Shown piece by piece: positions 4,545-6,079 of a DNA stretch of 40,800 nucleotides. Both the position numbers and the translations under genes were made by a program. A model generated the notes under the pieces. It saw nothing but the letters and a program-made list of their open reading frames with translations, was not told the DNA's origin and did not search any database. The stretch's first letter is position 1. Each line of letters opens with the position of its first letter. Origin of the DNA: Desulfuromonadales bacterium (GTDB taxonomy: Bacteria; Desulfobacterota; Desulfuromonadia; Desulfuromonadales; JAAXQG01). The stretch is from the NCBI GenBank assembly GCA_012974445.1, contig JAAXQG010000151.1, forward strand, positions 1-40,800. Reading direction: 5' to 3'.

Positions 4545-5270
4545 ATGCACATCCCTAAACATCTTGCGATTATCATGGACGGCAATGGCCGATGGGCACG
4601 AAACCGTCAACTCCCCCGTCTTGCAGGACATGCTCGTGGTGTAGAGACGGTCCGTACCGTGGTGCAGGAGTGCGCACGTCTTGGCGTGGAGTATCTCACC
4701 CTCTATGCTTTTAGTTCCGAAAACTGGCGTCGTCCCGGTGACGAGGTTTCGGGACTGATGAGCCTGCTTGCTGCCTTTCTGCGTTCGGAGCTCGCCAGCA
4801 TGCAGGAATATGGTATCCGATTGTCTGCCATTGGCGATCTTGCTTTGCTTCCTGAGCAGTCCAGAAGGGTTCTGCAGGAGACCATGGAGGCAACGGCAAG
4901 CAACGACAAGATGGTTCTTAATCTGGCGCTTTCTTATGGCGGTCGTGATGAAATCATCCGAGCCATGGCTTCGATCGGAAAAAAAATTGAAACTGCGCAG
5001 CTCAGTTCCTTGCAGATTGACGAGGCGCTGATCTGCGATCATCTTGATACTCGTTCGCTTCCTGATCCTGACTTGCTCATTCGTACCAGTGGAGAGATGC
5101 GTATCAGTAATTTTCTGCTTTGGCAGATCGCCTATTCGGAACTCGTATTTACCGATGTGCTCTGGCCCGATTTTGGGGTGGAGGAACTTCACCGGGCCAT
5201 CGAGGAATTCTCCCTGCGGGAGAGAAGATTCGGGTTGACGGGCGATCAGCTCCAGACGCCTGAGACCTGA
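4545..5270 (+). CDS. uppS: Undecaprenyl diphosphate synthase
   Basis: This cis-prenyltransferase condenses eight isopentenyl diphosphates onto farnesyl diphosphate to give the C55 lipid carrier used for peptidoglycan and O-antigen synthesis. At 241 aa it has the family length. Catalytic Asp12 sits in IIMDGNGRWA. Other motifs are the GVETVR helix, YAFSSENWRRP (about 55-65), LSYGGRDEI, and the C-terminal pocket DLLIRTSGEMRISNFLLWQ with EL.FTDVLWPDF. The ATG at 4545 has only a GAGG as ribosome-binding site. uppS-cdsA-dxr-rseP is a widely conserved envelope and isoprenoid cluster. Confidence 0.97.
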   Translation: MHIPKHLAIIMDGNGRWARNRQLPRLAGHARGVETVRTVVQECARLGVEYLTLYAFSSENWRRPGDEVSGLMSLLAAFLRSELASMQEYGIRLSAIGDLALLPEQSRRVLQETMEATASNDKMVLNLALSYGGRDEIIRAMASIGKKIETAQLSSLQIDEALICDHLDTRSLPDPDLLIRTSGEMRISNFLLWQIAYSELVFTDVLWPDFGVEELHRAIEEFSLRERRFGLTGDQLQTPET

Positions 5271-5274
5271 CTTC

Positions 5275-5284
5275 GGAGGATCCT
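5275..5284 (+). promoter_or_regulatory. Ribosome-binding site that points to an ATT start for cdsA
   Basis: GGAGG (5275-5279) is followed by five bases and then ATT at 5285, which is in frame with cdsA. No ATG, GTG or TTG is in frame between the uppS stop and 5378, so this strong site has no ordinary start codon to serve. Confidence 0.7.
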
Positions 5285-6079
5285 ATTAAACAGCGCATTC
5301 TAACCGCCCTTATTGCCCTGCCTTTACTGATTCTTTTTCTCAACTATTCAGGAAAAAGTCTTTTTCTACTTTTCTCGGTGCTTGTCTGCGCCCTGGCCCT
5401 GCAGGAATTTTTCGTCATGGCCCTGCCGAATCAGAGCCTGCTGGAGCGTAGGGTTCTCATTGGCCTTGGTTCCGGCTGGATATGTCTTTTCGGTTTCGGA
5501 ACATTCGGTTCGCTTTTCGCCGGATGGGTGGGACTCTTTTTGCTTTGTGCCTTTCTTTTCTTGTTTCGGTTCCAGTCCATGGAGACTGTTGCCTCTCGTA
5601 TGGGGCTGAGTTGTCTGGCCTTTTCCTATGTCCCGCTACTTCTTGGGCACCTGGTGTGGCTTCGAAACCTCGATGCCGGTGTACACTGGATAATTCTGAC
5701 TCTGGTGGTGGTTATGTGCGGTGATTCGGCGGCTTACTTCACCGGATCCGCCTGGGGCAGGAGGCGGCTGTATCCGGCGGTGAGCCCCAACAAGAGCCTG
5801 GAGGGCGCCTTGGGCGGGTTGGTCGGAAGTCTGATCGGCGCCTGCGTGTACAAAGGGTTTTTCCTCCCCAATGTCTCCTTCGGATTTGTGATTGCGCTGG
5901 CCCTGCTGCTGGGTGTGCTTGGACAGGTGGGTGATCTGTTCGAGTCGCTGCTCAAGCGCAGTTTCAAGGTAAAGGATTCAGGGACCCTGATTCCGGGGCA
6001 CGGAGGGATTCTGGATCGTCTTGACAGTCTGCTGTTCGCTTTTGCGCCAGCCTACTATTTTATTTTTTTCTTTGGCTAG
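5285..6079 (+). CDS. cdsA: Phosphatidate cytidylyltransferase, probable ATT start
   Basis: CdsA makes CDP-diacylglycerol from phosphatidate and CTP, the branch point of phospholipid synthesis, in the inner membrane. The track begins at a GTG at 5378 (233 aa), which has no ribosome-binding site and would remove the first membrane segment. Extending upstream in frame to the ATT at 5285 gives 264 aa beginning (I)KQRILTALIALPLLILF, the usual CdsA N-terminus, with GGAGG five bases upstream. Several further membrane segments follow. The C-terminal signature is seen as GDLFESLLKRSFKVKDSG and PGHGGILDRLDSL. A sequencing error turning ATG into ATT is the main alternative for the start; the gene identity is secure. 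Confidence 0.9.
   Translation: MKQRILTALIALPLLILFLNYSGKSLFLLFSVLVCALALQEFFVMALPNQSLLERRVLIGLGSGWICLFGFGTFGSLFAGWVGLFLLCAFLFLFRFQSMETVASRMGLSCLAFSYVPLLLGHLVWLRNLDAGVHWIILTLVVVMCGDSAAYFTGSAWGRRRLYPAVSPNKSLEGALGGLVGSLIGACVYKGFFLPNVSFGFVIALALLLGVLGQVGDLFESLLKRSFKVKDSGTLIPGHGGILDRLDSLLFAFAPAYYFIFFFG

Follow-up and report, generated by a model that had tools for sequence, protein, structure and literature searches.

A conserved AUU, AUC or AUA start codon on cdsA in the class Desulfuromonadia

To our knowledge, few bacterial genes keep AUU, AUC or AUA (together AUH, or ATH in the DNA) as a start codon. Their pairing with the CAU anticodon of the initiator tRNA is imperfect and IF3 acts against them, as is known from infC of E. 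coli; UUG counts among the canonical alternative starts and is tolerated by IF3. Here we describe an AUH start on cdsA, the essential membrane-lipid gene for CDP-diacylglycerol synthase, in the class Desulfuromonadia. A close parallel is infC, which encodes IF3, starts with AUU or AUA and is autoregulated. cdsA is like infC in its AUH codon, its strong Shine-Dalgarno (SD) sequence and its class-wide conservation, but it does not encode the discriminating factor and is a possible target, not a self-regulator. In E. coli the same gene also has a non-AUG start, but this is UUG. E. coli pcnB is reported to have an AUU start and to be translationally limited (PMC9410913, PMC1780047), and like cdsA it carries this weak start on an enzyme gene. 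A study on S. aureus describes a non-canonical start combined with an extended SD for ccpN (AUA), which is strongly conserved, and for cvfC1 (AUU), conserved among Staphylococci, and reports that AUU and AUA starts reach approximately 10% of AUG, one medium allowing up to 30% (PMC13009471). As far as described there, both resemble cdsA in the non-canonical start, the extended SD and the conservation in relatives, but one is a regulator and the other a small protein, whereas cdsA encodes a lipid-synthesis enzyme and is conserved over a whole class. Fixed non-canonical starts in conserved genes have also been described for Listeria infC (ATT) and rnhC (ATC), which are other genes than cdsA and concern one species only (PMC13068326). 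A literature search that had most subscription journals outside its reach returned no paper on an AUU, AUC or AUA start of cdsA. Conserved AUH starts are already known from infC, pcnB, ccpN, cvfC1 and rnhC; what is unusual about cdsA is the taxonomic depth and an AUUAA overlap with the stop codon of the upstream gene.

The window, i.e. the whole stretch of DNA that was analysed, comprises 40,800 nucleotides of a Desulfuromonadales draft genome, and contains the following features around cdsA. The name uppS follows an earlier note on this DNA and the gene order ispU-cdsA-rseP in E. coli.

4545..5270, + strand: uppS, undecaprenyl diphosphate synthase, 5' neighbour of cdsA; open reading frame with stop TGA at 5268-5270, 14 nt before the ATT
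5261..5263, + strand: TGA in the cdsA frame, which it closes on the 5' side, 8 codons before the ATT
5275..5279, + strand: Shine-Dalgarno GGAGG of cdsA; 5 nt spacing to the ATT, duplex -9.5 kcal/mol
5285..5287, + strand: start codon ATT of cdsA; ATT, ATC or ATA at the homologous position in 113 of 117 class genomes
5285..6079, + strand: cdsA, phosphatidate cytidylyltransferase (CDP-diacylglycerol synthase); 264 codons and a TAG stop, matching Pfam PF01148 and the structures 4Q2E/4Q2G
5378..5380, + strand: first in-frame GTG of cdsA; rejected as start, since it deletes 31 conserved codons
6092..7249, + strand: dxr, 3' neighbour of cdsA; open reading frame with a TTG start, served as control gene

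The earlier note had proposed that cdsA starts with ATT, on the grounds that its frame lacks any ATG, GTG or TTG between the upstream stop and the GTG at 5378, that a GGAGG lies five bases before an in-frame ATT, and that the stretch before the GTG already encodes a typical CdsA N-terminus. The first two points could be read directly from the sequence: downstream of the TGA at 5261-5263 the frame runs GAC CTG ACT TCG GAG GAT CCT ATT AAA CAG CGC ATT, with the GGAGG at 5275-5279 and the ATT at 5285-5287, and no ATG, GTG or TTG occurs before position 5378. The third was borne out by the protein itself, as residues 2-263 of the 264 amino acids translated from the ATT match the complete CTP_transf_1 profile (PF01148, positions 1-264 of 264, E 2.4e-62), and residues 1-261, including the first, align with the solved CdsA structures 4Q2E/4Q2G, which we take to be from T. 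maritima. The open reading frame list of the window, limited to ATG, GTG and TTG, misplaced the CdsA start. One statement of the note was wrong: CdsA does not open phospholipid synthesis, as it makes CDP-diacylglycerol downstream of two acyltransferase steps. Near the cdsA start in the window, predicted mRNA structure was not unusual (z 0.86) and there were zero matches to known RNA families in Rfam, so that a regulated throttle at this site would operate without a further visible element.

To see whether the ATT is kept in relatives, CdsA was searched in two overlapping sets, giving matches in 57 of 58 genomes of the order (the first sample) and in 194 of 195 genomes of the class, and the start was read in 117 distinct class genomes, the window included. 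One genome in which cdsA is split over two contigs (G034) stands outside these 117, and eight of them (L233-L240) were chosen for lacking the first pattern or for a check that they required, so the set is weighted towards exceptions. The homologous codon was ATT in 69, ATC in 35 and ATA in 9 genomes, together 113 of the 117, and the remaining four have a GTG at this codon or within two codons of it. An ATG at the homologous position, which had been named beforehand as the observation that would speak against an ATT start, was found in none of the 117. The claim that cdsA starts with ATT is thus strongly supported. The reading is ambiguous in two of the 113 (L058 and L235), where a GTG immediately precedes the ATH; in another (L006) an ATG directly follows, or touches, the SD run. 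An independent scan for the start pattern (I-K-x-R...) in 136 genomes of the order detected its ATH form in 120 genomes and its NTG form in one; the 16 genomes lacking the pattern comprised four without a CdsA match, seven with ATH, four with GTG and one with a GTG directly before an ATT. A further ATC, after GAGGAG, was seen in cdsA of Geotalea sp. SG265 (L032), presumably a member of Geobacterales, which was left out of the 117. As separate observations, one locus (L015 in genome G031) contains a single in-frame TAG inside its CdsA match, and second matches to the ATH pattern (I-K-W-R-I...) occur outside cdsA in two genomes of one genus, at G033:C1:2330182-2330219 and G019:C3:119768-119805.

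With the start codons mapped onto a tree of CdsA, the third AUH position shows at least 23 switches between T, C and A over the 113 loci, and at least 16 over the 57 loci in which the uppS stop precedes the start codon, none of them to ATG; the tree is quick and built partly from short sequences, which together with relatedness makes these change counts approximate. Two changes between AUH and GTG were found on it. Since ATG lies one step from each of the AUH codons and was never reached, we read this as probable selection against AUG at the cdsA start, and the pattern, shared by almost all class members that were read, suggests that selection retains a start which is deliberately weak. The codon is not indispensable, as GTG took over in four genomes and possibly in two more.

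Two other explanations are an error and a start elsewhere. The window belongs to a draft genome (3.35 Mb, 329 contigs, 85.5% complete), and the ATT might be a sequencing or assembly error for ATG. However, over 110 further genomes, including several single-contig ones, share the AUH codon class, and ATT, ATC or ATA at the same codon in 113 of 117 genomes, and never ATG, excludes chance or a misread base, which leaves this explanation a negligible probability. It is likewise very improbable, if slightly less so, that translation begins at an upstream non-canonical codon, through a frameshift fusion with uppS, or at the GTG at 5378. An in-frame CTG is present in the window at 5267-5269, and 32 of the 113 relatives have some canonical codon in frame upstream of the ATH, such as the ATG after the SD in L006. 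In the other 81, the frame from its upstream stop to the ATH holds no ATG, GTG or TTG, so any upstream start there would itself be non-canonical, and in nine of the 113 this stop is just 2-3 codons away. The SD peak is located at the ATH. The CTG at 5267-5269, the sole other near-cognate codon upstream in the window, has no SD (duplex +0.4 versus -9.5 kcal/mol for the ATT). In 19 of the 113, the geometry rules out a frameshift from uppS. A start at GTG 5378, which the earlier note had put forward as its own possible refutation, would cut into the CdsA fold and cost the conserved domain, as defined by Pfam and 4Q2E/4Q2G, its first 31 codons.

An SD lies closely in front of the ATH. Over the 113 loci the duplex ranged from -14.6 to -5.6 kcal/mol with a median of -9.1, the spacing to the ATH was 5 or 6 nt in 88, and four had no match of at least 4 bases to the SD motif. 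Within the order, the median for cdsA was -10.8 kcal/mol (53 loci) compared to -3.5 for uppS (53 loci) and -5.0 for dxr (54 loci), and the cdsA SD was far stronger than either (Mann-Whitney p <1e-15 in both cases). The four genomes with a GTG start on cdsA have duplexes of only -5.2 to -5.8 kcal/mol. A strong SD thus goes together with the weak codon, and compensates for it.

In part of the class the start codon is shared with the end of uppS. In 43 of the 113 loci the TAA that ends uppS takes the third base of the start codon as its first letter (AT-TAA-A; distance -5), and all 43 have ATT, the T being fixed because it also belongs to the stop. At such AUUAA loci, e.g. L005, L007 and L012, a stop-start overlap is built on a non-AUG codon. 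In 57 loci from 13 families, the window with its 14 nt and L235 with the GTG in front among them, the uppS stop precedes the start codon, which is ATT in 23, ATC in 27 and ATA in 7; in the other 13 of the 113, uppS overlaps the cdsA start in other ways. It could be argued that AUU is kept because its T starts the uppS stop (AU-UAA-A), with CdsA made by termination-reinitiation from uppS, and a change to ATG would indeed remove the uppS stop. The exact position of the TAA in the 43 loci, all ATT, fits this explanation, as does the enrichment of ATT at the start in the order of the window (62 of 76, compared to 177 of 417 internal Ile codons; Fisher p 1.5e-10), which is attributable to the overlap with the TAA. 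Against it, the 57 loci without such an overlap still have ATT, ATC or ATA, and overlap and non-overlap were interchanged at least 15 times on the approximate CdsA tree without a single release to ATG. The overlap appears to account for part of the AUH pattern but is refuted as its sole cause, and we regard it as an improbable explanation of the conserved codon.

Other genes were read as controls in the genomes that had served for cdsA. Both neighbours of cdsA start normally: uppS is canonical in 54 of 54 readable loci (1 of the 55 was truncated) and dxr in 55 of 55. The earlier note had drawn a parallel with infC and pcnB, and only the first half of this held in the class. infC starts with ATA in 46 and ATC in 4 of 50 class genomes, after GGAGGT-like SDs, the genome of the window being one of those with ATA (L173, contig C33); in 20 of the 50 a stray canonical codon lies within 16 codons, without a comparable SD. 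In contrast, a canonical start codon is available for pcnB, the second gene with AUU in E. coli, in 30 of 30 class genomes, and the AUH start sits on cdsA instead. Among the genes surveyed class-wide, an AUH start is limited to cdsA and infC. The AUH codon of infC in 50 of 50 genomes suggests that, in this class, codons of this kind are open to IF3 logic.

We also looked at cdsA outside the class. A search of the phylum gave 140 genomes with a family match, from which 70 loci were taken; removing 10 without a tblastn alignment, 4 that were in-class and 1 with a bad alignment left 55. An ATG was available in 36, a TTG in 9 and a GTG in 4 of these; five (L118, L122, L130, L194 and L211) lacked ATG, GTG and TTG near the cdsA start and had a CTG behind a strong SD, and one (L117) had ATT only. 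With TTG, GTG and CTG in the phylum and a TTG start on E. coli cdsA, the weak start of cdsA is wider than its AUH form, and it is the AUH form that marks this class.

Taken together, the comparisons make it probable that the AUU of cdsA is a conserved start of low efficiency that IF3 discriminates against and that throttles CdsA. The unusually strong SD would position the 30S subunit on the cdsA mRNA, where the initiator tRNA would pair imperfectly with AUU, or with AUC or AUA in relatives, resulting in inefficient initiation. Since IF3 discriminates against AUH, initiation on cdsA would be sensitive to the amount of free IF3, and selection holding the codon within the AUH set would have CdsA made at a low, adjustable rate, throttled within an operon in which the adjacent uppS and dxr have normal starts. 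Since infC carries a codon of this kind as well, the level of both infC and cdsA could be set by free IF3. A reduced CdsA yield and IF3 sensitivity are what we infer from these comparisons of sequences, and membrane production may in this way be tied to initiation fidelity, as the earlier note had proposed. The main competitor, to which we give somewhat less than an even chance, is a plain setting for low expression that involves no IF3 control, of the kind proposed for pcnB, in which the weak codon limits the dose of a membrane enzyme. Such a setting fits the data about as well, and weak cdsA starts do recur that are not all of the AUH type, as illustrated by the TTG of E. coli and by the 55 phylum loci outside the class, of which 5 have only a CTG with a good SD, 1 only an ATT, and 13 a TTG or GTG. 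However, for a low yield alone a GTG or TTG start, or a weak SD, would suffice, and yet a strong SD and an AUH codon are kept; this combination is more indicative of discrimination against the codon than of low occupancy of the site. A more far-reaching version of IF3 control, in which cdsA and infC form a permanent IF3-read set, the ratio of free IF3 to ribosomes sets the supply of CDP-diacylglycerol, and a large part of the order does so via the AUUAA overlap with uppS, is conceivable, but we consider it unlikely.

A whole class that keeps AUH on a phospholipid-precursor enzyme, with at least 23 approximate third-base changes and none to ATG, makes cdsA a concrete and testable case for IF3-dependent control outside infC. 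If IF3 control is true, membrane lipid output would follow the state of the translation machinery, and the AUUAA overlap would join the synthesis of the cell-wall carrier and of lipids. On the practical side, gene finders restricted to ATG, GTG and TTG misplace the CdsA start in this class.

The AUU of cdsA is presumably decoded as fMet by the initiator tRNA. An initiator-type anticodon arm, searched with the pattern CGGGYTNATAACCCG, from which deviating arms would escape, was matched in 56 of 58 class genomes, and among the matches listed all anticodons were CAU save a lone TTTAT in G058. Finally, other AUH starts were sought by comparing two 400 kb stretches from genomes of the same genus. 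Among 357 conserved genes, as judged by eye, cdsA and one asd-like gene showed protein conservation extending well beyond the first canonical start, together with a strong-SD ATH at matching positions in both genomes; this count is a lower bound, as the filter missed infC owing to its stray upstream canonical codons. The asd-like gene has ATT in G019 (L334) and ATC in G033 (segment L271-L290), with the first canonical codon more than 30 codons downstream. In 29 asd loci, the ATT of L334 was the sole candidate in that locus, L336 was ambiguous with an ATT followed at once by ATG, and 27 had a canonical codon near the start. Most other class members that were read have an ATG at about the same place in asd, and as far as these readings go, the AUH start of asd is confined to one genus.
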